From Branchiostoma floridae (Eukaryota > Chordata > Leptocardii > Amphioxiformes > Branchiostomatidae), in assembly GCF_000003815.2 (NCBI RefSeq), contig NC_049993.1:7935762-7999761 (forward strand): a stretch of DNA of 64,000 bases, written 5' to 3'. Position 1 is the stretch's first letter; every line of letters begins with the position of its first letter. A program made the translations under genes and the position numbers. Shown in pieces: positions 9,601 through 45,900 of this stretch. The notes under the pieces are model-generated. The model was given only the letters and a program-made list of their open reading frames with translations. It was not told where the DNA came from and searched no databases.

Positions 9601-12600
9601 GCTCTTCAATTCGGAATACTCAGGATACTGTCATTTCCGGACGTAAGGGATGGTCCAGTGCCCTGTAGTTGTATACGACAGGATGGTCTTTCATATGTTT
9701 GTCGAATCTTGCTTTAAAACCGTTCACAGTTGGTGCCATCACTACTTCCTCTGGGAGATTGTTCCACCAGCTGACAACCCGATTTGTATAGGAGTATAGC
9801 CGTGTATTTGTTTTCGCCATGGATCTTTTTAATTTCAACTGGTGACCTCTTGTTCTTGTTTCTACAGACAAGTGGACTAAACATGGAGTATCGTATAGTC
9901 CTCTCATGTATTTGAAGGTGTTTATTAAGTCGCCTCTTAGTCTTCTATATACCAATGTGGGGAGGTGAAGACTCCTAAGCCTCTCAGGGTAGGGTAGATC
10001 CGCCAGACCCGGTACTCTTTTGGTTGCCCTTTTTTGCTCTTTCTCAATTTCAGTAGCCAGTGACCATAGGTGAGGAGACCATACACTTGCTCCATACTCT
10101 AGATGAGGACGGATGATAGACTTGTACAGGGTTAAAAACATACATTTGTCCATAAACTCAAATGTTCTCCATACCAGTCCCATTATCTGATTAGCTTTCC
10201 TTGTTATGGTAAGGATGTTTTTGTTAAAACCCAGGTCCTTGTCTACAATAATTCCGAGGTCTTTCTCTTCCTCCGTGAATTCTAGAGACAGAGGCAAGGG
10301 ATTTGCTTCGTCTTTCATTTTGTATGAGAAGTCTGGGTGTCCCCCGCCAATTCTGATTACGGTGCATTTATCTGGGTGAAATTGGAGTTGCCACCTTGAA
10401 GCCCATAACTGTAGACTGTCCAGGTCTTGTTGTAGTGTTTCACAGTCACACCTGTTTGGTACTGTTCGGTAGATTTTTGTGTCGTCCGCAAACAATTTTA
10501 AGTGACAGGTAACTGCATTAGGCATATCATTCACGAATATTGTGAATAACACCGGTCCAAGAACACTCCCTTGCGGGACTCCACTGTGTACCTCCGACCA
10601 CCGTGAGTGACTATCGTTGACACACACCCTTTGTTTTCTATTTTCGAGAAACGAGGCTATCCATTTGAGAAGGCTCCCCTTGATCCCGTAACTTTCTACT
10701 TTCCTCAAAAGCCTTTGTATGGGAACTGAGTCGAAGGCCTTGCGGAAATCCATGTAGATTACATCCACAGGTATACCTTGGTCTAGCCAGGTCGTCCAGC
10801 TTTCCAAACATTCCAGGATTTGTGTTACTGTGGATCTTCCAGGGAGGAACCCATGCTGTTGTCGTGTAAAAAGTTCATTCCTTCTCATGTGTTTTATAAT
10901 CTCATCCCTAATTATACCCTCCAGAACTTTGCCAACCACGGAAGTTAGACACACGGGTCTATAGTTGCCTGGAGTTTTTCTACAGCCTTTCTTGAAGAGT
11001 GGAGTAATGTTTCCAATTTTCCAGTCTGTTGGCACCTCTCCCTCGTTCAGTGACTTTTGAAAGAGAATGTACAGAGGTGGAGCAAGCGTTCCAGCAAGCT
11101 CTTTTAGGACTCTAGGGTGAATTTGGTCTGGTCCCATGGACTTGTTGGGGTTGAGGTTCTCTAGACGTTTTTGAATATCTTCGATGTTTAGTTCAATGCC
11201 TTTCAGCTCCTGTTTGTATGTTGACTCTTCAGGTTGTGGTATACACCTTGTGTCTTCTTTAGTAAAAGTACTAACGAAGAATTTGTTTAGTATTTCTGCT
11301 TTTTTAGTATTTCCGCTTTCTCATCTCCATCCTTCAGGTCTGGGATGTTATGTCTTGTTTTTGACTTTTTATTTACGTATTTCCAAAATAGCTTTGTATT
11401 CCCTTTAATATTTCTGGCGATCTCCTTTTCATGTTTCTTGACCGCTTTTCTTGCTGCCCACCGTGCTTGGTTACGCAGTTTTGTGTATTTAACATAGTTA
11501 ACATGACTTCTTGTGTGGATGTATCTCTTCCAGGCTTTTTGTTTAGTTTGTTTGTTGTCTCTTTGTCTTTCCATGAAAGTCTTCTTCTTCTCTGTGTTGT
11601 ATTAACTTTGGGTATGTTTTTGTCTGAAGATTTCCTTACTGTTTCTGACAATACTTTCCAACACTCGTTTGTATCTAAATCTTCTAACATTGTGTCCCAG
11701 TCTCTCTCCAAATCTTCTCTCATGTCATCATAGTGCCCCTTGTGGTATAAGCGGAATTCCCTGCCGTTTTGGCTCCTTTCCACATAGCACTTATATGACC
11801 ATTCCAGCATGATGTGGTCGCTTTTCCCAACAGGTGGCCTCGGAGTGACCGTATCTATCATATGCATCTCGTTTGTAAGTATCAGGTCTAACACATTGCT
11901 GTTCTGGTTAGCCTGGTGTCTTGTTGCAAAGTCTACATGTTGAAAGAGGTACACATCTCTTATTGCCTCTAAATAGCAAGACTTGTTTGCATATTTTCTC
12001 CTTTTCCTCAGTCAAGTACCGAAAGCATGAAGATCATGGTTTTATCAAGACTTTGTGAGAAGTTGTCGCACTGTTGACTGTAGACTGGTTTTACATTTTA
12101 AAAACGTTGTACACAGATGCCCAGGTGGACGTCGGCATCGAGAGTAAGAATTACCTGGTGGACACCAGCGATGTGCAGATGTACTGTCGCACCACCCACG
12201 GGAGTATCGTACAGAACAACATCAACAACGTGAACTTCCCCATTATACGTGAAAGGAGAGGCAAAATAGATATAGGTAAGGTTTAACCTGATCCTTTAGC
12301 ATATACATTAACAGTATTTGGATGTTCCCAATTCTCCTTAAATGTATTTAGAAATTTTGGCCATCAATTTTGTTGGCCAACTAGTGGAATGGCCGACGGA
12401 GCAGTCTGCCTCAACACTTCAAACGACCTCAAACAACCTCAAATGACCTCAAATGCCTCTAATATGCAGTATACATGGTAAACAACCTTATGTGGCGCTC
12501 TGGATACATATTTTATCCATTTATGAATGAAAACAGTACAATAAAAGCATATATAGCACAACTCTATCATTGTCAACTTTCAATACTTGTACACTAAGTG

Positions 12601-21600: not shown

Positions 21601-24600
21601 TGTATGGAGCCCCGAATCGCTACGGACCTGTGGGGTGAGTTGTGAGCAACAATGTTGAACTTCGTGAAGACTCTGTACATAGCTTCATCACCCTGGGGAA
21701 TCAAGTAGAATTTGTACAACACCTGTGGTAAGGAAATGGTACAGTCCATTCAGGAACTGCTAAAGGTAGCTGAGGAGTTGCTGATACATCAACCAGGCAA
21801 ATGTATTTCAGGGTGTGATACGAGATCTGACCTTAAATTATCATTGGCCGAGACTAATTCAGCACGAAGGACATGTGTGTTTACCTATGTTTGGATAGTG
21901 TTCAGTACAAAGGACAGGTATGTTTGTGTGTTTGTGTGTGTGTTCTGTGTGTCTGTTGCTCCCCCTCTCATTTGCATCCCATCTCTTTCACATTATATAA
22001 ATACACGACAAGCTTGCGGAGAACTTTTCCTTTACTTTACCTTAGGCTTTATTTTTTCCTGTCCTCCATTACAGAAGCAAACAGGATATATATGTTTGGG
22101 ATTGCATCTTCTATGATCATGACTCACTCAAGAAGTTTATTTCTTGCCCAGGTGCTACCAGGTTGTGGTCATTGAGCTGAAAAATGGAGCAACAACTGAT
22201 GAACTGCCAGCACCACAAAACCTGGAAGTGTTCAACAATTACAGCCAGGCAGCCGCCAATTACAGCCAATCAGCCGGAAAAAATTACATCGCCTATGTAG
22301 CTGCCGCTCATAGAGGGTGAGTTGAAACAAGAAAGCTTCTGAAAAAAGCTGGCCGGTGCATATTCTGGAAAAAGCCTGGATGTCAAACAAAATCACACGA
22401 AAAAAGAGTTTTTAAACGTCGAATTACTGAATGGTCTGTCTTCTATTAAAAAAACATTACATGAGATTTGTCTAACAAAGAAAAAAAAATTGTAACCAGT
22501 GGGGTTCGAACCCACAATCCACGGCTGCAGAAGCAAATTGCTATTTGCACCCAGCGTCTTAAACGGGTCGGCACACCGACTCATTATGAATCAGGTGTAT
22601 AGAAGGGCTATTAGAAGGGTTTAGTTAAATTGACTGATTCATGCATCCATCCATGCATCCAAACGAACGGTTGAATGAACCGCTTCTGTCGATTCTACGC
22701 ACCGGCAAAAATTCATTCTTTAGGCAGAAAACAGTTACATGTCAGAATGACAATTTAGGCAATGACTCGACACTTTCTAAAGATATATTTCATTAGTTCC
22801 ATGTTCATAAGTGATATCAATGGCCAGTGGCAATGTATTGAAATTGAACGGTCACAGGTAGGGCTAGGTATCAGTACAGCGTACCGGTACAAAACCGGTT
22901 TTTCTCATCGGACCGGTCCAGAAAAAACGGCCCTGAAAAAATTAGTAGGACCGGATGTTGGACCGATTGGAAAATTAACAGATTATTTTATCAGTCATTC
23001 ACACGTTTTGGCGCTTACAGGTGGAAGAAAATAACAACAGTGAAGTAGAGTTTGTAGTAATTTTTTTTTGGTAGTTTCTACTTAGTTTTACAGCCAATTG
23101 CACAGGTGCAGTTAGCATTGTAGGATTTTAAAACGCCAGCGTAAGTCTAATACTCCACCAAACAGATTTCTTTGTTGTAAAATGTACCATTGGTATGAGT
23201 CATACTGAATTAGGTTCAGGTTCAGGTCCGGACCTGGACCTAATTCTCTGGACCTGAACCGGACCTGGACCTGAATTTTCTGTACCGGTACCCACCCCTA
23301 GTCACAGGTCATACTTTAGGTAACTACAATCATTGGACATGTACATCTTCAAAAGACTTTCCTATGTCTGTGTAGTGANNNNNNNNNNNNNNNNNNNNNN
23401 NNNNNNNNNNNNNNNNNNNNNNNNNNNNNNNNNNNNNNNNNNNNNNNNNNNNNNNNNNNNNNNNNNNNNNNNNNNNNNNNNNNNNNNNNNNNNNNNNNNN
23501 NNNNNNNNNNNNNNNNNNNNNNNNNNNNNNNNNNNNNNNNNNNNNNNNNNNNNNNNNNNNNNNNNNNNNNNNNNNNNNNNNNNNNNNNNNNNNNNNNNNN
23601 NNNNNNNNNNNNNNNNNNNNNNNNNNNNNNNNNNNNNNNNNNNNNNNNNNNNNNNNNNNNNNNNNNNNNNNNNNNNNNNNNNNNNNNNNNNNNNNNNNNN
23701 NNNNNNNNNNNNNNNNNNNNNNNNNNNNNNNNNNNNNNNNNNNNNNNNNNNNNNNNNNNNNNNNNNNNNNNNNNNNNNNNNNNNNNNNNNNNNNNNNNNN
23801 NNNNNNNNNNNNNNNNNNNNNNNNNNNNNNNNNNNATTTGTCATGTTAAGCTTGGAAAACTATATTTTCCCCCAATTTCATGTCATGAAACTCAGATTGT
23901 CTTACTTGCATGCATGGACTAGTTGAAATATGTGTCCTTCCAACAAGCCAATTTCTGTCCTGGGACAGAGGGATAGGTCCTGGAGAGGTATAAAATCTTT
24001 CATGTCTTGTTGCATCTGCAGCCAACATACTTGTCCAGCCTATACATGGCCCCTGTGACAGCAGCACCTCTTGGCGGTACAATGCTATTGGACAGAATTA
24101 ATGATAAATCCACAAAGTTAAACAAGACATTCACAAAATGTTGACCTTTCATTTCTTGTTGCATCTGCTGCCAACATTCTCATGGTGTGTGTGTGTGAAT
24201 ATTGTTCAGCACCAAGGACAAGTCTGTTTGCCTGTGTGTGTGTGCCTTACGGAGGTGTTAGTTCTTCCATTTCTCGTGTCTGCAGCCGACGTTCTCATCC
24301 AGCCCGTACATGGATCCTGTGACAACAGCACCCCCTGGTGGTGCTGCAGAGACCGAGACTGCCGGGCTCGCCCCCGCGACGTGGGGCAAAATTGCCGCAG
24401 GGATCATCGGCGGAGCCTTGTTCCTCTGTGCACTCCTGCCACTGCTGTACTACTGCTGGAAGTGTGTATTTTTTGAGCTGTCATGTGTTAGGTTTTAACA
24501 TTATCTAGTGAGTTAACACAGCAATTTTAGGATGGTGAAACTGTTTAAAAGTAGCTACAGTATTTGAGAATTCTTTCAATATTTCATGTGGATTTTCAGT

Positions 24601-27600
24601 TCTTTTCTAAATTTCAATCAATCTTTTCCAGGAATCAAAACACAATTCTTTAGGCCAAGTCTACTCATAATGGTGAAAATACATAAGAACGACTTCAACT
24701 AGCTAAATGGCAACAAAATGATCAACTGACCAACCCACTTATGTTCTGTAACCAACATAATGGAATTTTCTTATCAAGTCAATGTGATTTCATGTGTTGC
24801 AGAAAAAGAGGAGGTGGCAAGAAGAAAGACTCGTTTGATGTGGAGGGAAGAATGAAGGGCACAGGAGGAGTTTCTGCCAAGGCCGACATCCCGGGTGTAT
24901 CCGCCCGAGCTGCCGTGCCCGGTGTCCAGGCAAAACTCGACAAGCCAGGTGTGCAGTCATCAGCAGGGCTATCTCTCCATCCTGGGGCACCTCCCGTAGT
25001 GAAGAAGCCCAAGGATTCAGCCAAGACGTCCTGTTTTGGGAAGAAAAAGAAGAAGGCGGGTGGAGGCATAGAGGTCTACTCCCCGGCTATTGATGCTCAA
25101 GCCGGTGGTGAGTTGAATGCTCCCAGTATGAACGTCAGAGGTCCTCGGGCAAACATTGATGCCAACGCTCCTCAACTTGAGGGAGACATAGATCTCCGTG
25201 GGCCTAACGTTCACATGAAGAAACCCAAGAAGTCAGGTGGTCTGAACTGTTTTAAGAAGCCAAAGAAACCTACAGGAGGTATAGAAATGGATGCACCTGA
25301 TATGAATGTCAGAGGACCACAGGCTAACATTAATGCACGAGCCGGTGGAGATCTGAATGCCCCGAGTATGAACATCAAAGGACCGCGGGCAAACATCGAC
25401 GCCAACGCACCTCGACTCGAGGGAGACGTGGATCTTCATGGACCTAACGTTCACATGAAGAAACCAAAGAAATCAGGCGGTCTGAACTGTTTCAAGAAGC
25501 CAAAGAAACCTACAGGAGGTATAGAAATGGATGTGCCTGATGTCAAAGGAAAGGTGTCTGGTCCCAAAATGCCCGATGTAGACGTCAAAGGTCCACAGAT
25601 GAAAATGAAAGGTCCAGAGGTGCCGGATGTCCATATGAGAGGTCCTCATACGTATGTCAACGTGGATGCTCCAAAAGTACCAGCAGTAAACTTGAAATCA
25701 GGTGACATCGACATTGATCATGAGTATGAAGACATGGACATCAATCTGGAGGGTCCTAAAGCAAAGGGAGGCTTTAAGATGCCTGATCTTAACATCGGAA
25801 AACCAAACATGCCGGATTTCAACCTCAAGGGTCCAAAGGTTAAAGGGCCTGATGTGGATATAGATGCAAATCTAGATGCTGATGTTGATCTACCTGAAGC
25901 TAAGGGTGGTTTCAAGATGCCTGATCTTAACATTGGGAAACCGAAGATGCCAGATTTCAACCTTAAGGGTCCTAAAGTAAAAGGTCCAGATGTTGATGTA
26001 GATGCAAATCTACCATCTGCCAACTTAGATGCTGATGTTGATCTTCCTGAAGCTGAAGGTGGTTTTAAAATGCCTGGGTTTAACATTGGGAAACCAAAAA
26101 TGCCAGATTTCAACCTGAAAGGCCCTAAAGTAAAAGGCCCTGATGTAGACATGGACATGGATGCAAACCTACCATCTGCAAACTTAGATGCTGATCTTGA
26201 CCTTCCTGAAGCCGAGGGTGGTTTCAAAATGCCTGGGTTTAACATTGGGAAATCGAAAATGCCAGATTTCAACCTTAAAGGTCCTAAAGTAAAAGGCCCT
26301 GATGTAGACATGGACATAGATCCAAACCTACCATCTGCAAACTTAGATGCTGATCTTGACCTTCCTGAAGCTGAGGGTGGTTTTAAAATGCCTGGGTTTA
26401 ACATTGGGAAACCAAAAATGCCAGATTTCAACCTTAAAGGTCCTAAAGTAAAAGGCCCTGATGTAGACATGGACATAGATCCAAACCTACCATCTGCCAA
26501 CTTAGATGCTGATCTTGACCTTCCTGAAGCTGAGGGTGGTTTCAAAATGCCTGGTTTTAACATTGGGAAACCAAAAATGCCAGATTTCAACCTTAAAGGT
26601 CCCAAAGTAAAAGGTCCTGATGTAGACATGGACATGGACATGAATGCAGAATTACCATCTGCAAACTTAGATGCTGATGTTGACCTTCCTGAAGCCAAGG
26701 GTGGTTTTAAAATGCCTGGTTTTAAAATGGGAAAACCAGACATGCCAGACTTGAATCTGCCCTCTTTCAAGGGTCCGAAAGTCAAAGGTCCAGATGTTGA
26801 CATCGATGCAGAGTTACCAAGTGGATCCATAGATGCTGACATGGACCTACCTGAAGCCCATGGGGGTTTTAAGATGCCAGGCATAGGTTTCTCCAAGCCA
26901 GATATAGACTTAAAGGCACCAAAGATGCCAGGTATGAACATAAAGGGTCCAAAGGGGAATATCGAAGGAGGAGTTAACGTGAAAGCACCAGCTATCGAAA
27001 CAGAGTTACCACGAGGAAAAGCAGAGTTCGGCATCAAGGGACCGCAAGCTCCAAAGCTGCATGCCCAGGGCCCGTCCTTTGACGTTAAAGGACCCAAGGC
27101 TCCCAGCATGGATGTTCGAGGGCCTCGTGTCAAGGGAGGAATAGACGTTGACTCCCCAAAGGTTGATCTAAAGGGCAGGCCAGCTGATGCCGCCAAGGGT
27201 GGCTGCTTCGGTGGGAAGAAGAAACCGACAGGAGGCGTCGATGTTGACTTGAAGGGACCCAAACTCAAGGGACCCAAACTCAACACAGGAGATGTTGATG
27301 TAGACTTGAAGGGACCCAAACTCAGGGGACCCAAACTGACCACAGGAGGTGCAAGCTTCAGCATGGGTAAGTCAATGTCCCTATATGCGAGTGATAATGA
27401 TGTTATACTGGTATCTTTGGAAGGAGTTCTGTAAGTTGGTTTTTGATGTCATGAATTTGGGAAAAATGCATGTGAGTGGTACTTACATTGTATATCTGTC
27501 TTATAGAGAACTTAAAGATCAGGAAAATTTAGCTATAAATTTTGTAATAACAGTCAGAGTTTGTTGGCCAATATCTTGCTGCCTAATCGCATGACCAATA

Positions 27601-30600
27601 GAAACTTAGCACAAAAGAGCTACCATGTATACTAAGGCTGAAGGTTAAACATGACAAAATCCACAAAACCATCTATGTAAGGGGTGGGAACCGATACAGT
27701 GTACTGGTATAAAACCGTTTTTTCTTGTTGGACCGGTCTGGAAAAAAACAGACCTGAAAAAAATCAGTGGACCAGATGTAGGACTGATTATAAAATGAAT
27801 AAGATTATACCATCACTATAGCAGGTGTTAACAAAAGTGAAGTAGTGTAGAGTTGTCATTTTTACCAAGTTTCTACTGTCAAACTTGGTCTCACTTAACA
27901 GAGGCAGTTAGCATTGTTTATGTAAAGATATGATAATCCACCAAACAGATTCCTTTGTAGCAAAATGGACCCATTGTTTTGCACATCGCCCATTCAGAAA
28001 CAATTAGGTCCAGGTTCAGGTCTGGACCTGATCCTCTGGACCTAAATGTACCTGTACCTGTACCTAAATTTTCTGTACCGGTACCCACTCCTAATCTTTG
28101 TGCCTTTCTACAGACAACCCAGCCTTTGACGAAGACATTTCAAACCATATCATCTCATGGGACGGGGTGAACCTTGACCCTAAAGTGCTGGGAAAAGGAA
28201 AGTTTGGAGAGATTAGGAAAGGAACAGTCAAGAAGGATGGAGTGATGAAGCCAGCTGTGATCAAGATGTTGAAAGGTATCATCCATATTGCTTTTGTCTG
28301 ACTTTGGTACCCTCTGGTAGAGATTAAAGTAAGGACCTTTGTTGCAGTAAAGCTGTAAATTTGTGGTTTTGATGTGGTTTTCTTTTGTGACAGAAGGGCA
28401 AAGCAGGTTACTTTCCACTTTGTTTTGAATTGATAGTTTAGACAATTCTGTTGGAAAGTAGTATAAAATTTGAAGTGGTGTTTGTTGTGTCAAAAATTTG
28501 AGATGGAAAGGTAACTGCAAAAATACACCCACTGTAAATATTTCAAGATTACAGTAGTACTTGTTACATTGGAGCACAGTGCCTCTTTTGAGCTTGCTTG
28601 AAGCCTCTTTATTACTGTACCTCTCCATGTTTTCCTACCCTCCATTGCAGCAGTCATGATCAGGACATTCTTATCCAGGTTTGTGTCTGCTACATATTGG
28701 TTGATGTAGTGTCTACCAGGTCCTTTGAAGCTTCTCTTTCTCTTCTCTTTATATTATGAATACCTTATATTTGCTTTTGCCATAAAATGAATTGCAGTCT
28801 ACATTCTTTGTTGGTTTGATCAGTTAGGTAATGCTTTTGAGTCAGATTACTTTTGATTCCAGTAAACATGTTGAACAGTCTGCAGCAGTTTGAATCAAAA
28901 ACTGTCAAAAAGGCACTGAGTATGGTCAAACCTTTCTGCAGGTACCAGTCAAGAGGCTTGAAATACCTCTGAAAAAAGTATGGTCACACCTTTATGTTTG
29001 TACCAGTCAAGAGGCCTGAAAGAATGGTGGCAATGACAATTAGACACTTTATGCTTGGTTCAATAAATGGTCTGGTGGTTCTGAATATTCAGAGATGTTC
29101 ACTTTATAAATTAAAGTACCAGGTTTAACTGTATTTCTTCTTCCACAGCTTCTGCACCACAGAAAGATCGTAATGACTTCATCAGTGAGCTGGATGAGAT
29201 GACCAGAGTAGGAGATCACCCCAACCTAGTCAACCTGATCGGCGCAGGGCAGCATGATGGTAATAATTCTACCATTACGGATTTCATGTCTAACAACAGC
29301 CGGTACTTAGCACCAAGGACATGGACGATGATAACGTAAATTGGCTATAAATCAGCACAAAGTGGCAACAAAATCTACTTATAAGGAACATGGTTATGGT
29401 CAGTCTTAAACTGAGATGTTGCAGCTGCAACTACCATATAACCTGTTTATCTCTTGTGCACTATACCCCTTCACCCAGTATTCCAGGGTTGTGGGGGAAC
29501 TGCATGGTGGAATTGGTTCCACTGTCTCCATCCCATTTGGTCCTGTGTCATCGGGTGGGATGCTGCAAAGCTCTTTTGGTCTATTTCTTTTCCACTCCAT
29601 TCCTGTTTATCTCTACCTCCCTGTTTGTACCCAGGAAACATGTTCATGGCGCTGGAGTTGGCGAACAAGGGAACCCTCCGTAGCTACCTACGGGAGAGTC
29701 GGCACCCCGGGGAGGCTGACGGACAGATCTCCACCCTCTCCAGTCAGCAGCTGTTACAGTTTTCCAAGGAGGTGGCTGAAGGAATGCAGCAGATATCCAG
29801 AAAAGGGGTGAGCCAGATCTTATTCTTGATTAGGCTATAAAAGTTCTGAAACTTTTTAAAGGGATAATCAAAAACAGGGCTGGGAGGAAGGACTAAATCT
29901 TAGACTATGTTCACTTCCAAACTGCTCTGTTTTAATGTTGATTTCCCAATTCAGTAGCCTTTAAAAAAATCTGTGAAGAAATAGTTGATGTGGCCTGAAA
30001 GAGAGAAAAGATTCAGACATCTGTTTTCCATTTGATTTACAATTCTGTATCAAGTAAATAATTGTACAAAAACAAAGTACACTCTCACAAAGATTCAGAC
30101 ATGATATTGATAGTTTGATGCTAATCTTTTTCTTAATCCTGCAGATTATCCACAGAGATTTATCAGCCAAGAATGTCCTTGTGATGGAGGAGGGTAGTGT
30201 GCCAGTCTGCAAAGTGTCTGACTATGGCTTACCCAGGATGGTCAAGGCAGAGAAGGTACAATACAGAAACTCAGTACTCTGTTTTGTGTCCATATCTGTG
30301 TATGTGTAACTTTTTAGAGAATAAAAAGATCATACTCATCTGCAATACTCATCTTTTTCTTCATTCATATCTTAACAATCTGTCTTCTTTTCTATTCTTG
30401 CCTCAGCATAATCAGTACACATATTTTCAATTCCTTTTTTCAGAGGCACGTCCCGAATCGCTGGATGGCACCTGAGTCATTGTCAAACAACACCTACACC
30501 ACCAAGACTGATGTGTACGTTCAAATTTCATAGCTAAAATTCTTTCATCCCTTGTAGCGACATTAAGTGAAATGTCTATCCAGCCAATACAGTATTATGT

Positions 30601-32338
30601 GTACTAATTACTCTAACTGCTATTTCTGTTGCAGGTGGTCGTATGGTGTTGTTCTTTGGGAGATCACAACACTTGGTAAGTGGACGGAAACATTGAACAT
30701 CAAATACACAATATGGTTTGTAGTTCAGGCAGCTGAGTTAAGGGGCCTTTGGATAACTAAGAACACTCATGGACGAAGCAGTCAGTTCAGTTCCCCTCAG
30801 AAAGCACAAATCGTCGCAAACTTGCCGTATTCAAGAGGAAGATAAATCAACACTACGTCTTCATGTTATAAAAGAATAGTGCAGTTTGTTAAATCCCTGA
30901 CAAAGGTAGCCAAAAGGTACTAAATTTTTCGCAGATAAAAATGGATCATTTAATTGTGTACCTAGGATGAAAATTTTGCTACTGCTATTGTAATAAGTTA
31001 GGAACTATAATAAAGAAAAAATGAAGAAGACAGTCACCTTCACTAGTAAGCATTACTCTACATTGACAAGTACTCATTACAGATGACCTTGTTTCCAGGT
31101 GGGACCCCCTACAGTGAGCTGGAGAGTGAGGACCTGACAAGCATGATTCCTGCTGGCTACAAGCTAAAACAACCCGTCAACTGTCATGATCATATGTAAG
31201 TCTACAGTTCTGATCATGAGCAAAACTTAATGCAAAGTTGAATTGTGTTTTCATTGGAAACATCTCATGTAGCAGTGGAACTTACATGTACTAAAAACCA
31301 TTAGACCTGTAACAAAACCAAGTTCTGCTATAGTGCCAAGGAAAGTTGCTACAGGGCCTAAAATTGACCTAAATGACATTTGCCTTTACAAGACCAATCT
31401 ACAGACAAAATACTATCCTAATCCATTCATATCTTAAGTAACTGTTATTGATGTCCAAAATATGCAGAAACACAGCAGAAGAACAGACACAACAGGAACA
31501 GTGCCTCCTCTGAAACTCCCTTTCACACTCACAGGTAATGAAGAATTCTTCATCATACTTAAAGTTTACTGTCCTAATTTCTGTCTGTGCAGGTACATCC
31601 TGATGAGGCAGTGTTTCCGTGACGACCCTGAGACACGCCCCACCTTCCCACAGCTGGCCGAGACCCTGAAGGAAATGGAGGCCAACAGCGATGAGGTAGG
31701 GACTTGTCACTTTTGACATTGACCATTTCTTTCACTGTAAATGCATTCAAGTTCCTATGGATTTAATGTCGGGGTAGTGGGAAAATGGAGTGCTAACACA
31801 CAACACACATGCAAACAGACCTGTCCTTGGTGCTGAACACTTGTTCCTAGTGCTGATCATGCAGGTATTCTAATTTGCGGAAGGAGGAAAATGGAGTTTT
31901 TGCGGTGGTTTTGAGTTGGCGCAAACTTGAATGCATTTACAGTACTGCACTGTAGTCACATCATTTCTTTTCTAATATGATATGAAATACCTCTTTAGGA
32001 TGTCCTTCTTATGTTGCTACATGTATATTTAAGTTTCCTGAAACTTGGTTGTCAAAACTATTTAATGTATTTGGATATTAGCCGTATTTACAGTTGAACC
32101 AATTTTCCTCACCTGTCATATTTCTGCTACCTTCTTTAGGGCAAAGCATGTATCATTGATACATTGTTACTATAATGTCCACTTTTTCTTCATAAGCTCT
32201 AATCCAACATTGTCTCTTTTTAAAGTGGACTGTGTGTTTGACTTTCAATTTGAAATCTTCCCCCAGACTTACATCGATGTCGAGGCAGACGACAGTTTTG
32301 AGTATGAGCCAGCGGATCCGAGCAAGGATGATGACTAG
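511..32338 (+). CDS. Tie-like receptor tyrosine kinase with AHNAK-like juxtamembrane region (5' partial)
   Basis: Single-pass receptor tyrosine kinase, expected at the plasma membrane. Proposed exons: 511-639, 1320-1495, 2121-2244, 2532-2662, 3076-3208, 3686-3817, 4442-4582, 4793-4921, 5526-5654, 6062-6214, 6741-6857, 7953-8068, 8403-8550, 9017-9136, 12117-12275, 12791-12949, 13395-13472, 13781-13951, 14284-14418, 14966-15103, 15499-15624, 16607-16728, 18410-18536, 18935-19054, 20025-20128, 20900-21152, 21520-21634, 22152-22316, (one exon probably missing), 24286-24461, 24803-27366, 28114-28275, 29149-29259, 29635-29807, 30145-30255 or -30273, 30444-30514, 30635-30675, 31099-31195, 31593-31695, 32267-32338. 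Every junction is GT-AG and phases agree throughout, except across the 23379-23835 gap, where phase 2 meets phase 0. No signal peptide is in the window, so the gene starts upstream. The Ig-Ig-EGF3 blocks and the kinase resemble the Tie family; PAN domains and the AHNAK-like exon are not part of vertebrate Tie receptors. Ligand unknown. Confidence 0.85.
1320..3208 (+). CDS. RTK exons: first Ig-Ig pair
   Basis: Four exons (1320-1495, 2121-2244, 2532-2662, 3076-3208) encode two Ig-like domains, each split in two by a phase-0 intron. Domain 1 has the paired cysteines in DLLCRT and GAFSCQV. Domain 2 has VKWRKDGE as its core tryptophan strand and EGIYEAY where the usual YxC is; the canonical cysteines appear lost (VVLRM, YEAY). 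The same arrangement, including the cysteine-poor second domain, recurs at 12117-13951. This matches the Ig-Ig start of Tie receptors, where the Ig domains carry ligand contacts; binding here is unknown. Confidence 0.75.
1882..2100. mobile_element. Foldback MITE, copy 1 (TAACGCTAG family)
   Basis: About 220 bp with imperfect terminal inverted repeats: the left end TAACGCTAGCTTAACTTTAT pairs with the right end around GATAAAGGTGAACTAGC. A second copy with the same ends lies at 4124-4342. It has no coding capacity and sits in an intron just before exon 2121. Confidence 0.6.
2285..2425 (-). mobile_element. Inverted-repeat element, copy 1 (CAAGCAACTGGAT family)
   Basis: A foldback pairs AGTAGTTACTCAAGCAACTG with TCCAGTTGCTTG and AGTAACTACT about 60 bp later. 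The flank TGTCTAACCTTCATCAACG is the reverse complement of the left flank of the copy at 55050. Three copies of the family are in the window. Confidence 0.5.
2700..2935. repeat. Minisatellite, about 27-bp unit
   Basis: Repeats of GAATGACACACCAACAAGAC followed by TGGTGCT, degrading to the right. It begins right after the donor of exon 2532-2662, inside the intron of Ig domain 2. Confidence 0.7.
3686..4921 (+). CDS. RTK exons: first Tie-like EGF triplet
   Basis: Three phase 1-1 exons (3686-3817, 4442-4582, 4793-4921) encode three EGF-like domains. The first begins NKWGPDC and ends CAPGFRGDSC. The second contains LLCPADPFGCTC, like the CLPDPYGCSC signature of the second Tie2 EGF domain (family knowledge). 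The third is GTFGPGC...GWSGPNC. Order and spacing equal the triplet at 14284-15624, so the two triplets arose by segmental duplication within the gene. Confidence 0.8.
4124..4342. mobile_element. Foldback MITE, copy 2 (TAACGCTAG family)
   Basis: Same family as 1882-2100: both begin TAACGCTAG, have GGGGTAACC about 25 bp in, and end with GATAAAGG followed by GAAC. The interior has diverged strongly, so the insertions are old. Intronic. Confidence 0.6.
5094..5388. mobile_element. hAT-like MITE with 8-bp target duplication
   Basis: The left end AGGGTTGGACAAG and right end CTTGTCCAACCCT are perfect 13-bp inverted repeats. Flanks are CAGTCAGC (5086-5093) and CAGTCAGT (5389-5396), an 8-bp duplication with one mismatch. 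Size, target length and lack of coding capacity fit a non-autonomous hAT element. Intronic. Confidence 0.75.
5526..6214 (+). CDS. RTK exons: PAN/apple-like domain 1
   Basis: Two exons (5526-5654 and 6062-6214) encode a module ending in YYQREG. The cysteine pattern is CAKYCLQ, then CRSFD, then CRLN, which is the usual PAN/apple layout (helix CxxxC, then C..F.Y, then C.L). The same two-exon module recurs at 7953-8550 and 16607-18536, each time followed by a one-exon EGF domain. PAN modules mediate protein or carbohydrate contacts in other proteins; their presence in a Tie-like receptor is unusual. Confidence 0.65.
6741..6857 (+). CDS. RTK exon: EGF domain after PAN 1
   Basis: A 117-nt phase 1-1 exon encodes a standard six-cysteine EGF domain (CSSLPCANGATC start, GPGWTGTKC end). 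It is of the classical type rather than the laminin-like Tie type, which suggests PAN plus EGF travelled together as a unit separate from the Ig/EGF block. Confidence 0.8.
   Translation, partial: TLVPAHPCHVPMAPPVWIERTCGTLASVALDGREQNVT
6985..7815. repeat. Minisatellite, about 51-bp unit, about 16 copies
   Basis: Unit: GATAGCCAATCAGCACCAAG, then GAGAGRYATCATCCCAAGAG, then TTTAAATGAGA. Copies differ by point changes, mainly in the middle. It fills most of the intron between EGF 6741-6857 and PAN exon 7953. Each unit contains CCAAT. Confidence 0.9.
7953..8550 (+). CDS. RTK exons: PAN/apple-like domain 2
   Basis: Exons 7953-8068 and 8403-8550 encode a second PAN-like module with CATRCLQ, CKSFDYR and CYLSTASK as cysteine landmarks, ending YYQMEG. 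The internal intron is in phase 0, as in the module at 16607-18536, whereas PAN 1 has a phase-1 internal intron. The phase match suggests modules 2 and 3 are closer to each other. Confidence 0.65.
8185..8340 (+). mobile_element. Inverted-repeat element, copy 2 (CAAGCAACTGGAT family)
   Basis: Carries GAAGGTTAGAAATCCAGG, then AAAAGCAGTTACTGAAGCAA and GGAAACGGTCAGAC, matching the left half of the copy at 55050-55270. The right half is degraded. It lies in the intron inside PAN domain 2. Confidence 0.5.
9017..9136 (+). CDS. RTK exon: EGF domain after PAN 2
   Basis: A 120-nt phase 1-1 exon encodes a six-cysteine EGF domain (CSSLPCQLPQRC start, CPNGRLGPSC end). The intron after it holds the CR1-like retrotransposon, on the opposite strand. 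Confidence 0.75.
9541..11998 (-). mobile_element. CR1/L2-like non-LTR retrotransposon, 5'-truncated and frameshifted
   Basis: On the minus strand, 11998-11560 encodes the C-terminal part of an APE-type endonuclease (LDLILTN and SDH motifs). After a one-base frameshift near 11550, 11574-11287 encodes the linker. After a second frameshift near 11290, caused by a short local duplication of the GCGGAAATACTAAA type, 11280-9620 encodes the reverse transcriptase: NYRPVCLTS, DFRKAFDSVP, SGVPQGSVLGP and the catalytic FADDT. No RNase H domain follows. The 3' end is an AGAGT-type microsatellite (plus strand 9543-9560). It inserted antisense into the intron before Ig exon 12117. The 505-residue RT frame is intact, but the element as a whole is dead. 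Confidence 0.85.
9620..11137 (-). pseudogene. Reverse transcriptase ORF of the CR1-like element
   Basis: Open frame of 505 codons containing the conserved RT blocks: PDQIHPRVLKEL, GFLPGRSTVTQ, DFRKAFDSVP, SGVPQGSVLGP, LFADDTKIY and an RT thumb region. It lacks the endonuclease start because of the upstream frameshifts, so it cannot produce a full retrotransposon protein. The open RT frame suggests a fairly recent insertion. Confidence 0.85.
12117..13951 (+). CDS. RTK exons: second Ig-Ig pair
   Basis: Four exons (12117-12275, 12791-12949, 13395-13472, 13781-13951) repeat the Ig-Ig layout of 1320-3208. Ig1 contains VQMYCRTTHG and GAFSCQV. Ig2 contains LTWHRDGD and GVYEVFQQA, again without the YxC cysteine, and ends MRLLVRG like the RLIVRG end of the first pair. 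Internal intron phases are now 1 rather than 0, so boundaries moved after duplication or were gained separately. Confidence 0.75.
12400..12740. mobile_element. Degenerate copy of the AAACGAC foldback element
   Basis: Contains CAACCTCAAATGACCTCAAA, then CTCTAATATGCAGTATACAT, then TGTGGCGCTCTGGA and GACTTGCTGCATTTTCTATT. All of these occur in the same order in the intact copy at 45245-45887. Ends are degraded. Intronic. Confidence 0.55.
14284..15624 (+). CDS. RTK exons: second Tie-like EGF triplet
   Basis: Exons 14284-14418, 14966-15103 and 15499-15624 encode three EGF-like domains. The second contains CLPDPYGCSC and GFKGLDC, essentially the signature of the second EGF domain of vertebrate Tie2. 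This triplet is the closest Tie match in the window and is the main reason for the Tie-like assignment. Confidence 0.85.
16607..18536 (+). CDS. RTK exons: PAN/apple-like domain 3
   Basis: Exons 16607-16728 and 18410-18536 encode a third PAN-like module: CARRCVN, CKSINYQ, CWLNNKN, ending NYYRREG. A run of four aspartates (GAT repeats) lies in the loop. The 1.7-kb intron inside this domain carries two different DNA elements end to end. Confidence 0.65.
17030..17935. mobile_element. pogo/Tigger-like MITE with TA target duplication
   Basis: Ends are CAGTCAAACCTGT and ACAGGTTTGACTG, perfect 13-bp inverted repeats, flanked by TA on both sides (17028-17029 and 17936-17937). Subterminal GCGGCCAC and TAGTGGCCAC repeats extend the homology inward. 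The roughly 0.9-kb interior has no transposase frame. CAGT ends plus TA duplication are typical of pogo-type Tc1/mariner elements. Located in the intron of PAN domain 3. Confidence 0.8.
17953..18306. mobile_element. MITE-like repeat with AGGCCCCTTCACAC ends
   Basis: Left end AAAGGCCCCTTCACACGAG and right end CAGTGTGAAGGCCCT form an imperfect inverted pair, and an internal CTCGTGTGAAGGGG repeats the end. It begins only 18 bp after the pogo-like MITE. A part is repeated in inverted orientation at about 39000-39085 (ATTCTAGAAATTCTCACTAC). Confidence 0.55.
18935..19054 (+). CDS. RTK exon: EGF domain after PAN 3
   Basis: A 120-nt phase 1-1 exon encodes a classical EGF domain (CSKVPCLNQGAC start, CAPGFTGSTC end). 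It is followed by an intron with a 149-nt N gap, then by FN3. Phases on both sides of the gap already agree (1 and 1), so no extra exon is required, though one could be hidden. Confidence 0.8.
19370..19518. other. Assembly gap
   Basis: Run of N in the intron between EGF exon 18935-19054 and FN3 exon 20025. Splice phases on both sides agree without an added exon. Confidence 1.
20025..21152 (+). CDS. RTK exons: fibronectin type III domain 1
   Basis: Exons 20025-20128 and 20900-21152 encode an FN3 domain: start RAPTNIQI, core CTVTWDPPPKPG, then LRELRPNSIYPFRVRARSQDGWG, shown here only by its key residues L, P, Y, R-V-R-A and the W-G-x-Y-S turn. These are the tryptophan, leucine and tyrosine positions of the FN3 fold. 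It sits where Tie receptors carry their FN3 repeats. Confidence 0.8.
20560..20735. mobile_element. Short MITE with CAGGGCTCGAAATAC ends
   Basis: CAGGGCTCGAAATAC at the left and GTATTTTGAGCCCTG at the right are near-perfect inverted repeats. The interior is built from ACCTGCA and TGCAGGT blocks. Half-copies of the same family occur near 8090 (AGGGCTTAAAATACCACCTG) and 46455. The target duplication is unclear. Confidence 0.65.
21520..22316 (+). CDS. RTK exons: second FN3-like domain (3' part not found)
   Basis: Exons 21520-21634 and 22152-22316 read PPPAPIKN, then YGPVGCYQVVVIEL, then YIAYVAAAHRG. The YGPV..YQVVV strand is typical of membrane-proximal FN3-like regions of receptor phosphatases and Tie-type receptors. 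The last exon ends in phase 2, but the next recognised exon (24286) begins in phase 0. One exon of length 3n+1 is therefore missing, most likely in the N gap 23379-23835. Confidence 0.6.
22480..22590 (-). repeat. tRNA-derived sequence (Ser/Leu-like pseudo-tRNA or SINE head)
   Basis: On the minus strand the sequence contains GTGGGTTCGAACCCCACTGG (a perfect T-arm stem with B-box), followed by a T-run that could act as a pol III terminator. Upstream are GCCGACCCGTTTAAGACGCT and CTGCAGCCGTGG, like a type II tRNA with a long variable arm. The 5' acceptor strand does not pair with GGTTAC, so it is not a functional tRNA. Confidence 0.45.
22859..23300. mobile_element. hAT-like MITE copy 1, perfect 8-bp target duplication
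   Basis: The 442-bp element runs from TAGGGCTAGGTATC to GGTACCCACCCCTA. It is flanked by GTCACAGG at 22851-22858 and again at 23301-23308. Interior blocks TACCGGTAC, GGACCGGTCC and GGTCCGGACCTGGACC are palindromic. No transposase. Located in the intron after exon 22152-22316. Confidence 0.85.
23379..23835. other. Assembly gap, probably hiding an RTK exon
   Basis: Run of N between exon 22152-22316 (ends phase 2) and the transmembrane exon (starts phase 0). An exon of length 3n+1, completing the membrane-proximal FN3 domain, is expected here or nearby. Confidence 0.9.
24008..24200 (+). pseudogene. Two degenerate copies of the start of the transmembrane exon
   Basis: TGCATCTGCAGCCAACATAC at about 24012, followed by TGTCCAGCCTATACATGG and CCTGTGACAGCAGCACCTC, is a clear relative of TGTCTGCAGCCGACGTTCTC at 24279 with its ATCCAGCCCGTACATGGAT and CCTGTGACAACAGCACC. 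A third, shorter relative (TGCATCTGCTGCCAACATTC) lies at about 24162. The nearest copy keeps its acceptor AG, but its frame loses the hydrophobic segment. Confidence 0.55.
24286..24461 (+). CDS. RTK exon: transmembrane segment
   Basis: After a Pro/Ser/Thr-rich stretch the exon encodes about 21 hydrophobic residues (IAAGIIGGALFLCALLPLLYY), then CWK and a basic stop-transfer stretch continued in the next exon (KKRGGGKKK). It ends in phase 2 and joins 24803 to restore a lysine codon. GxxxG-like small residues at the start of the helix could support dimer contacts (inference). Degenerate copies of the start of this exon lie just upstream. Confidence 0.85.
24803..27366 (+). CDS. RTK exon: AHNAK/periaxin-like repeat region, about 854 residues
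   Basis: A single uninterrupted 2,564-nt exon (phase 2 to phase 1) joins the transmembrane exon to the kinase exons. It is rich in Lys, Gly, Pro, Asp and Met. At 25760-26930 about eight imperfect units of roughly 40-50 residues carry GGFKMP, NIGKPKMPDFNLKGPKVKGP, DVD and LPSANLDAD, matching the style of AHNAK/periaxin central repeats (KMPKF, GPKV, DVDLP). A second, longer repeat in the first third carries NVRGPRANIDANAP and PNVHMKKPKKSGGLNCFKK twice. A basic motif CF-K-rich-GG(I/V)(E/D) occurs four times. AHNAK repeats are scaffold-like and probably extended; here they would form a cytoplasmic spacer between membrane and kinase. Repeat similarity is by eye. Confidence 0.85.
27679..28093. mobile_element. 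hAT-like MITE copy 2, ending 20 bp before a kinase exon
   Basis: Same family as 22859-23300: AGGGGTGGGAACCGATACAG at the left, TGTACCGGTACCCACTCCTA at the right, and the same internal blocks. Flanks ATCTATGT (27671-27678) and ATCTTTGT (28094-28101) are an 8-bp duplication with one mismatch. Exon 28114 starts 20 bp downstream, so the branch-point region of this intron must lie in or very near the element. Confidence 0.85.
28114..31695 (+). CDS. RTK exons: tyrosine kinase catalytic domain
   Basis: Exons 28114-28275, 29149-29259, 29635-29807, 30145-30255 (or -30273), 30444-30514, 30635-30675, 31099-31195 and 31593-31695. Motifs in order: P-loop GKGKFGEI; strand-3 lysine in AVIKMLK; helix-C glutamate in FISELDEM; HPNLVNLIGAG; catalytic loop HRDLSAKN; metal-binding DYG in place of DFG; WMAPES; DVWSYGVVLWEITTLG; GGTPY; CFRDDPETRPTF. 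All catalytic residues (K, E, HRD, N, D) are present, so activity is expected. WMAPES and DVWSYGVVLWE mark it as a receptor-type tyrosine kinase. The activation segment is short with the first donor and carries a tyrosine only with the second. Confidence 0.92.
32267..32338 (+). CDS. RTK last coding exon: acidic C-tail with two tyrosines
   Basis: Encodes a 23-residue tail starting TYIDVEADD and ending in DDD before TAG at 32336-32338. The two tyrosines (YIDV and FEYEP) sit in acidic contexts favoured by SH2-type docking (inference from general tyrosine kinase biology). The tail is short for an RTK, so most docking capacity may lie elsewhere, for example in the long juxtamembrane region. Confidence 0.85.
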   Translation, partial: TYIDVEADDSFEYEPADPSKDDD

Positions 32339-42959: not shown

Positions 42960-45900
42960 ATGATGAGCGTGCCGGTGATCTCGGGATCTCGGCAGAGGTT
43001 GTCTGCAGTTGTCGGGCGAGCCGTGAGCCCCTGGCGGCCACAGGGACACATCGGCAGGGTACGGGCGCTGGTGGGGTACCGGTCTGGCCTGGTCGGGCCA
43101 AGAACAGGTATACATACAGTTATGTAAAAAAGGAGTACGTTCAGACAGAAACAAATCCTAAATCTCGGGATTCCAACCCACGCCGAATCTGGGCCGCCAC
43201 ATCACAACTCTAGACGCTAAACCGTTACGCCATGAACGACTTGAAGCCGTTTTGCATGGTCAATTTAGCAACTTCCTTGAACCCCATTGTTACCCTTATA
43301 GTGATTCACATGTATCTGATTTAATTCAGTCATTATTTTGAGCAGTCACTAAATACTTACTTAATCTCCAGGCTGTTAGCTCTCATATTCCTTCAACTAC
43401 TCCCAAAGGAGTGATCATGAACTTTGTTTTGGGCGTGTCTGTCTCTGTGGTGCAGCAGTCCTGCATTTCAGTGTTGTTAGAATCTAGTAATAGCACATAG
43501 TTCAACTCCCTTCTATGTACAGATTGCCATACATTGTTCCTGTTACACTTGTCCTGCAATAAAGTTCTTCTTCTATCTGTCATTTTATTTCTTTGTTGTT
43601 GTTGTTGTTGTCCTCGTTTAACGTCTATTATTTCGCTAGACGTGGCCTCTTGGTGCTGAGTAACACATGGTTTGCATTTGAGTCAATAGTCTCTCTTGGT
43701 ATTTAACTCTTGGTTCCTTGTGCTTGAGAGTTGCTGGAGGAGTTTCTAGGAGAGTACATGTACGTCGAAACGGTGTGTACTCTCAATGTACTGGGAGAAG
43801 GCCATGTACATCTGTTTGTTGATTCCTTCTGAAAGGTCTTCTCTCATTCCAGCAAGCGTAGTGATGTCCGTGTCTCTGCTGTCCTCTGCTGTGTTGTATG
43901 TCTCATATATATTCTCCACTTCTAGCAGCATGTGTTGTCTTTCCTTTTCGTAGCGAGGGCAGTGGTACAGGAAGTGGTTGGTGGTCTCCACAGCGCCGCA
44001 GTTTGTGCAGCTAAGTGAGATTTCAGGGTTCATCCAGTTTTGATAGGAGTTGAGTCTGGTATGGCCGCTCACTAGCTGGTTGATGATGACTTGCGTGCTT
44101 CTTCTTCCAAGTGTTTGTCCTTTCTTCTTCATGTTGGTGGCTATTTTCTGCATGTGCTCACTTCTTGTGTTCAGCTTAGTCCTTCTATTCCATCTCTCGT
44201 GTGCTTGTGACTCAATGTGTTTCATGGCTTGCTGTTTTGTCCAGGATGTGTAGTTCTGGCAGTTTCTTGCTTCCTCTGCTGCCAGCTTAGCTTCCTTGTC
44301 AGCAATTTCATTTCCAGGAATACCCATGTGTCCTGGGCACCAGGTGATCTGTATGGTGTAGCCTTTAGATTTAAGTGTGCTGAGTTTGCTTCTGAGTGTG
44401 TTTATCAGGCTGTTGTAGGCTTCCACTTGTTGCACCCCTGTGACGGTTTCAATCGCTGCCTTGCAGTCGCAGAGGAGGAGTATCTTGTTTGATGTGGTCG
44501 GTCTTCTGGTGATGGTGTCTATGGCTCAGCAAGGTGTAGTCCCTCGAGTTCCCCTTCGTAGTTATTGTTATTATTATTATTTCTGACACTGTAATCCATC
44601 CATTAAAAATGTCTGGTAAAAATCCTGACCTGGTGACTGCGACCCAACCTCTGCTTTGAGAATAGCCTCATATACAATGAATGAAGCGCATTTTTGCCAC
44701 ACCGGGCTAAGTACAGGTCACAACAAGACATGTTGAAAAGATACAGTTCACAGATACAAAATGAGACTATTGCTGGATAAATTCAACTTTCTGTTATAGT
44801 GGAGATAAATGAGCAGATATGTTTTATGATCGATGGTTTGTCTAGTTGCATTATGAATATGAATTTTTCTACAGAACTTAGATGTATGAAATAAGGAAAT
44901 TGGTTTTGTATAACCTTATACAGTTCATTTCTCTCTACGGTAAACAATCTACAATCTACTACAAAATGGCGTTCGTCCTCTATTCTATCTAGATTACAAT
45001 GTTTGCATAGTCTTTGTTTCAGAGGGGTGCGAGTATGTCTTCCTGTTTCAATATGAAGTTTATGGCAGCTAATCCTTAGTCTTGTGACAGCATTCCTGTC
45101 CCTCATATTTTCATTACTTAGATATTTTTCTTCATTGTATGTCGTTTTGAATAATCTATATGATCTTAACTTATTTTTGGCAGCTCTGCCTTTGTTTTCA
45201 TTATGTATTTCTTTTAAAAACGTTTGAAAGTATGTGTCTTTTAACGGGTATGCCTAAACACCACAAACGACCCCAAACGACTCAGAAACACCACAAACGA
45301 CCACAAACGACTCTAATATGCAGTGTATATGGGTCAAAGAGCTTGTGTGGCGCTCTGGAGACATTGTTTATACATTTATGAATTTAATAAATGCAACAAG
45401 TCCTACGTATTCACCAGTTATTTCGAGTTAGTCCTGTTTCAAGATTAAAACAATTCTTGGCCACCATACTGGATCGTGTTTGCTTGCATTTGAGGCTGAA
45501 AAACACTTAGTATACAAGTTTTATAAGTTGACAATGATAGAATTGCGGTATGCTATAATCTATGAACCAACAGCTTCCATAATTTTATCGCCATGTTGTC
45601 TATGGAACCGAGCAAGGTACCGAGAACTTCCCCATGCAGACCCCTAGCACGGGCGATCCAACATGGCGGCCAAGAATTGCTTCGATCTTGAAACCAGCGG
45701 ACTAACTTGAAATAACTGGTGAATACGTAGGACTTGCTGCGTTTTTTAAATTCATAAATGTATAAACAATGTCTCCAGAGCGCAACACAAGGTCTTTGAC
45801 CCATATATACTGCATATTAGAGTCGTTTGTGGTCGTTTGTGGTGTTTCTGGGTCGTTTGTGGTCATTTGTGGTGTTTAGGCAGACCGTCTTTTAACCGCT

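Follow-up and report, generated by a model that had tools for sequence, protein, structure and literature searches.

A Tie-like receptor tyrosine kinase gene of Branchiostoma floridae with an AHNAK-like rod encoded in frame between membrane and kinase

In the amphioxus Branchiostoma floridae, a window of 64,000 nucleotides (positions 7,935,762-7,999,761 of contig C15, NC_049993.1) carries a gene for a Tie-like receptor tyrosine kinase; between its membrane and kinase exons, one exon encodes, in frame with both, an 855-residue AHNAK-like rod. The rod resembles that of AHNAK, a giant scaffold protein of little-understood function; here rod and receptor kinase appear to be one protein. AHNAK itself has been called mysterious, and it is reported to co-precipitate with a receptor kinase, IGF-1R (PMC9782793). 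Were the fused protein expressed, the role of an AHNAK rod at membranes could be tested within a single polypeptide, and the protein would show to what length a receptor kinase can extend its juxtamembrane region while the whole stays constrained. We favour, with moderate confidence, the reading of a receptor carrying its own scaffold, which takes together the in-frame rod, its presumed origin from a short juxtamembrane exon and a proposed docking role at the membrane. Coordinates given without a contig are those of the window, and genome searches covered 513 Mb in 431 contigs.

The relevant part of the gene lies in a stretch (23836-32338) free of unread bases (N), which spans the membrane exon, the repeat exon and nine kinase exons. 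Joined, they form a single frame of 1,226 residues without inner stop, ending at 32338, with GT/AG sites at every junction:

24286-24461, plus strand: transmembrane exon, with helix IAAGIIGGALFLCALLPLLYY (mean hydropathy 2.07), leaving two bases (AA|)
24803-27366, plus strand: exon of the AHNAK-like rod, with phases 2 to 1, encoding 854 residues besides those of the split codons
28114-28275, plus strand: kinase exon 1, with a short juxtamembrane tail, P-loop GKGKFG and catalytic lysine (AVIK)
29149-29259, plus strand: kinase exon 2, in the spliced frame
29635-29807, plus strand: kinase exon 3, in the spliced frame
30145-30255, plus strand: kinase exon 4, with HRDLSAKN and DYG, lacking an activation-loop tyrosine when the favoured donor is used
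30444-30514, plus strand: kinase exon 5, with RWMAPES
30635-30675, plus strand: kinase exon 6, with WSYGVVLWE
31099-31195, plus strand: kinase exon 7, in the spliced frame
31593-31695, plus strand: kinase exon 8, in the spliced frame
32267-32338, plus strand: last exon, with tail TYIDVEADDSFEYEP and stop TAG

A first-pass annotation, made from the letters alone, had described an uninterrupted repeat exon of 2,564 nucleotides, the borders of which prove correct to the base (AG before, GTAAGT after). It had further proposed that codon AA|A is restored with the membrane exon and G|AC with the P-loop exon, and both phases hold; the span it gave, 24286-28275, stops too early, the kinase continuing to 32338. 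Within 24803-27366 the coding frame has no stop, the other two having 79 and 57, and the repeat frame stays open from 24687 to 27434. According to a splice-site model trained on the gene's other sites, the rod donor is the best of the 135 GTs scored in 24802-27434, and only 0.46% of the 4,135 GTs of the window score as high. If the rod exon is skipped from the annotated sites, the frame shifts and a TGA is met a few codons on. The overall architecture that had been put forward, a receptor followed by helix, AHNAK-like rod and kinase, is backed by these splice sites and phases, by the constraint on the repeats and by a short exon found in three paralogues.

These paralogues came from a genome search with the P-loop exon, which returned seven matches, the window itself and six further places. 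Three of them are readable (L040, L041 and L042, at 5.86, 15.19 and 15.35 Mb of C15). Like the window gene, they have a membrane exon leaving two bases, a next exon with phases 2 to 1 and a similar P-loop exon. They differ from it in that this next exon encodes 27-30 residues instead of 854, and a second juxtamembrane exon stands between it and the P-loop exon; in L041 and L042 the short exon moreover contains YVN. The position-matched short juxtamembrane exon of the three paralogues is new here, and its identical place and phases make it likely that the fusion is real. In the flanks examined, no convincing juxtamembrane exon was found for L039, where the match has two inner stops, or for L043, while L044 was scanned within its own locus only. 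From this comparison it is most likely that the rod grew from an ancestral short juxtamembrane exon, keeping its place and its phases (2 in, 1 out); in the window gene, the second juxtamembrane exon has apparently been either lost or merged. At its start the rod resembles the short exon of L040 (KKDSFDVEG/RKDMSDVEG): over 24 residues the match is better than that of any of 1,000 shuffles or of the 801 other rod windows. ASF stands at an equal distance from the exon end in the rod and in L040 only, which is suggestive only. None of the listed rod matches falls at a paralogue, and none of the 125 kinase matches listed (125 of 484 candidates scored) falls at another rod. The presence of YVN in the short exons of L041 and L042 indicates that an adaptor site in the juxtamembrane region may be ancestral.

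The rod itself contains the following features, the tyrosine motifs being named after their known classes:

25032-25064, plus strand: cysteine-lysine box 1, CFGKKKKKAGG
25248-25280, plus strand: cysteine-lysine box 2, CFKKPKKPTGG
25488-25520, plus strand: cysteine-lysine box 3, CFKKPKKPTGG, a copy of box 2 within a 240-nucleotide repeat
25653-25664, plus strand: YVNV, of the Grb2 type (YxN)
25725-25736, plus strand: YEDM, of the p85 type (YxxM)
25767-26861, plus strand: seven successive units of 46-55 residues, with an eighth, divergent, running to about 27011
27204-27236, plus strand: cysteine-lysine box 4, CFGGKKKPTGG, near the kinase end

Eight units are counted from GGFKMP, at a spacing of 46-55 residues, and Tandem Repeats Finder reports a period of 240 nucleotides at 25089-25541 and one of 159 nucleotides at 25865-26749. 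That the repeats are of the AHNAK type, as the first-pass annotation had it, finds support within the same genome: the rod exon matches the rods at C11, C18, C16 and C4 with E values from 2e-70 (C11) to 2e-10 (C16), computed with a database size of 200 million. Among the controls, 20 shuffled versions all failed to match at E 10, and the reversed one reached E 0.24. An AHNAK repeat matches the rod at E 1e-25, and no match was reported for 200 shuffles. Pfam yields no AHNAK-repeat match in the rod and only Fil_haemagg_2 under the cut-off (E 0.005); PDB gives two weak matches, 5dqa (E 0.0025) and 2j8k (E 0.42).

Judging from the pattern of codon changes and the low ratio of nonsynonymous to synonymous substitution rates (dN/dS), selection seems to act on the protein that the repeat exon encodes in this frame. 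In five pairs of adjacent units, compared over their first 30 codons, we counted 34.5 synonymous changes for 95 sites and 5.5 nonsynonymous changes for 355 sites, a dN/dS of 0.032, where about 3.7 nonsynonymous changes per synonymous one would be expected at neutrality. The 63 alignable codons of the 240-nucleotide pair give 0.082. Changes at codon positions 1, 2 and 3 number 43, 25 and 176 in the 15 of 28 unit pairs that share 27 or more of 36 residues, pairs that are mutually dependent and selected for likeness. To be sure, constraint alone does not prove the fusion, because constraint on the repeats could predate their arrival at this place.

All four cysteines of the rod sit in CF[GK]-lysine boxes, three of them within residues 1-230 and the fourth at residue 801, and its three tyrosines are at residues 92 (YSPA), 284 (YVNV) and 308 (YEDM). 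The rod carries a net positive charge over its first 300 residues and a net negative one through the repeat block, turning positive again after about residue 720. We infer from these features that the rod is a membrane-lying, phosphorylatable docking scaffold, with predicted palmitoylation, phosphorylation and partners. The basic first part, with three cysteine-lysine boxes, would lie on the inner face of the membrane, and the fourth box, near the kinase end, would return the kinase to it, the acidic repeat block forming an extended loop between the basic ends. Ligand-driven clustering would then allow neighbouring kinases to phosphorylate YVNV and YEDM, which could recruit adaptors of the Grb2 and p85 types, and the rod would tether partners in the cortex in the manner of AHNAK and periaxin; the first-pass annotation had suggested calcium channels, annexins or the cytoskeleton as possible partners. 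In simulations of human receptor kinases, basic juxtamembrane residues contact phosphatidylinositol 4,5-bisphosphate, PIP2 (PMC4361843), and a motif binding S100A10-annexin A2 has been described for AHNAK (PMC7072810).

Several points weigh against the picture of a receptor with its own scaffold. The fusion is read here from the DNA of one genome, and lancelet gene models are frequently mispredicted, some being chimeric (PMC4967905), a caution about prediction errors also voiced elsewhere (PMC6071037); short of transcripts, the exon phases are the answer to this warning. Neither of these two papers uses the word AHNAK in its main text. The donor of the membrane exon is weak (4.39), the rod acceptor (6.03) scores below 32 of the gene's 38 other acceptors, and a weak cassette at 27961-28019 (scores 4.2 and 4.8) could replace the rod in frame. 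In the comparison with paralogues, 395 of 801 windows do as well as the rod start against L041, and 93 of 801 against L042; the far end of the rod is significant by score for none of the three (605, 552 and 36 of 771 windows score as high), and DVEG-like words are found in AHNAK rods as well. Over the full 80 codons first taken, the 240-nucleotide pair has 16 synonymous and 21 nonsynonymous codons, because its last part cannot be aligned. The motif tests, in which four cysteines fall in CF[GK] boxes in none of 20,000 shuffles and YxN with YxxM occurs among three tyrosines in 2.0% of shuffles, were chosen post hoc, with boxes 2 and 3 being mutual copies. On the receptor side, the favoured model leaves the activation loop without a tyrosine, and no exon linking the FN3 side (22316) to the membrane exon (24286), which would need one base and leave none, was found between these positions, mechanical candidates in the readable part being unconvincing.

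The rod could be translated and yet passive, a flexible spacer extending the reach of the kinase with no docking or membrane role. This is unlikely in our view, although the rod is repetitive and poor in tyrosine and cysteine, the tyrosine motif pair turns up in 2% of shuffles, and the long tail of L-periaxin is predicted to be disordered (PMC7072810). A dN/dS of about 0.03 is strong constraint for a mere spacer, which would account poorly for four cysteines all placed within one kind of basic box, or for the segregation of basic and acidic blocks.

Much less probable still is alternative use of the rod exon, in which another donor or the cassette would give a short receptor and the rod form would be minor or tissue-specific. 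Donors at 24463 and 24484 would indeed restore the kinase frame upon rod skipping, and the paralogues do have a short linker. Yet the three donors that keep the frame score -6.22 (24427), 0.85 (24463) and 0.99 (24484), as compared with 4.39 for the one used, and a scan for short in-frame replacement exons yielded, with both scores above 4, a single candidate in the second intron and nothing in the first; that candidate is the weak cassette, which is unlike the paralogues' short exon. Finally, it is most improbable that a receptor gene with its end near the membrane exon was misjoined to an AHNAK-like gene, separate or nested within it, as the frequent misprediction of lancelet models (PMC4967905) and the possible start codons within the open repeat frame (24687-27434) might suggest: AHNAK-like words start and stop near the splice sites (by eye), the donor at 27366 is strong, the rod phases match those of the paralogues' juxtamembrane exon, and leaving the rod exon out puts the annotated membrane and kinase exons in different frames, so that phases, splice sites and paralogues all disfavour separate genes. 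Misassembly was also considered and rejected, the stretch from 23836 to 32338 being free of N and the rod occurring once at 100% identity, with the other 50 genome matches at 56% or below.

Turning to the kinase of this receptor, Pfam identifies it as PK_Tyr_Ser-Thr (1e-75), and the putative catalytic residues, with the meaning commonly given to these motifs, are all there: K (AVIK), HRD...N (HRDLSAKN) and DxG (DYG). Among the best 60 of 316 PDB matches, the best one to a single domain is TIE2 (262.7 bits), followed by FGFR1 (211.5 bits), and closeness to TIE rests on such single-domain bit scores; the list is headed by an EGFR construct that carries the kinase twice, with 271.7 bits for both copies jointly and 134.7 for each. 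The TIE2 alignment extends into the tail, tyrosines included, with TYIDV opposite TYVNT. An alternative donor at 30273, which would restore the activation-loop tyrosine, was rejected (score -5.19). What makes a receptor tyrosine kinase, namely extracellular domains, one membrane helix and a kinase in frame, is present save for the missing linking exon.

Upstream of the membrane exon two further features were recorded:

511-22316, plus strand: 28 extracellular exons in one frame of 1,282 residues, supported by phases, with no stop; EGF-like, Ig-like, PAN and FN3
23379-23835, no strand: run of N, the likely site of the missing exon that would join the last FN3 exon to the membrane exon

Pfam finds PAN_1 (6e-17), EGF (1e-11), fn3 (2e-11) and Ig_3 (9e-8) in the extracellular frame. 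The linking exon probably lies within the N gap (23379-23835), where we place it because no candidate in the readable part is convincing. The receptor gene probably continues upstream of the window, where more Ig- and EGF-like frames are seen by eye. Also by eye, the beginning of the membrane exon recurs in degraded form twice (CCAACATACTTGTCCAGCC and CCAACATTCTCATGG) ahead of that exon at 24020-24190, and between two receptor exons, on the minus strand at 9620-12011, there are open frames that look like the reverse transcriptase of a long interspersed element (LINE).

Among known systems TIE1 and TIE2 come closest, with TIE2 as the best single-domain kinase match and Ig, EGF-like and FN3 domains outside. 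The TIE ectodomain has Ig, EGF and FN3 in a characteristic order; all three are present in the window receptor, but together with PAN domains and repeated Ig/EGF blocks. The TIE juxtamembrane segment is short, whereas the window receptor carries the 855-residue rod inside, and its kinase has DYG instead of DFG and, in the favoured model, no tyrosine in the activation loop. AHNAK, AHNAK2 and periaxin share with the window protein Gly-Pro-Lys/Asp rod words in one long exon. The latter differs from AHNAK and periaxin in its cysteine-lysine boxes, in having the rod inside a receptor with a kinase after it, and in showing no PDZ-like domain such as precedes the rod at the N terminus in that family, Pfam finding no PDZ in the extracellular, rod and kinase parts read. 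The Drosophila insulin receptor is a kinase with its own docking extension bearing YxxM sites, placed after the kinase and not AHNAK-like. Nor is the juxtamembrane region of DDR1 and DDR2 AHNAK-like, and it is much shorter than the window rod. These two receptors resemble the window receptor in that their cytosolic juxtamembrane region is described as unusually long (PMC4332414). The literature matches listed for AHNAK, amphioxus, receptor kinases and invertebrate orthologues, which in four of the lists were 20 of 257, 20 of 49, 10 of 18 and 10 of 841 entries and which leave aside a paper on the amphioxus tyrosine-kinase superfamily, include no receptor kinase with an AHNAK-like juxtamembrane region.

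Elsewhere in the genome, the rod at C11:7596346-7607088 is an open frame of 3,581 residues, in phase with an Lgl gene (L021, C11:7592422-7596256) in which Pfam finds LLGL and Lgl_C above their cut-offs and an apolipoprotein-like stretch under its own. The junction of the two has a donor of 7.98 and an acceptor of 7.65, with no stop over the stretch checked. At C16:18551598-18552296, on the minus strand, an AHNAK-like frame of 233 residues (L028) stands between BAR- and SH3-like exons of amphiphysin/BIN-like appearance; the BAR and SH3 matches are both below the Pfam cut-offs, and phase-0 sites adjoin the rod. A very long AHNAK-like rod occupies C18:17899094-17918975, with frames of 1,125, 1,537 and 4,055 residues and N runs. 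A crude motif scan of about 40 kb upstream of it found no PDZ, from which no absence is claimed, and none of the at least 77 PDZ matches in the genome (150 of 181 candidates scored) is at the C11 or C18 rods. A frame of 862 residues at C4:13270314-13272899 (L029) has weaker rod likeness and 36 tyrosines, in SGPDYN repeats; it holds a CFGKPKRPK box similar to those of the window rod. The in-frame Lgl rod and the rod flanked by BAR and SH3 would make AHNAK-like rods a repeatedly used module. We therefore raise, tentatively, the possibility that AHNAK-type rods are a reusable exon module grafted onto proteins of the membrane and cortex (a Tie-like kinase, the polarity protein Lgl and an amphiphysin-like BAR/SH3 protein), which in the receptor would become a membrane-anchored scaffold phosphorylated by its own kinase.

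Two features of the window stand apart from the receptor. Frames that look by eye like cytochrome P450 (LPGPPSVPVLGNF) lie at 45896-49261, and the segment 53397-54009 is made of eleven 55-bp units, with 97% matches, in which a splice-acceptor-like TTCCCTCCCACAG is followed by ATGTCCCAGCAG.

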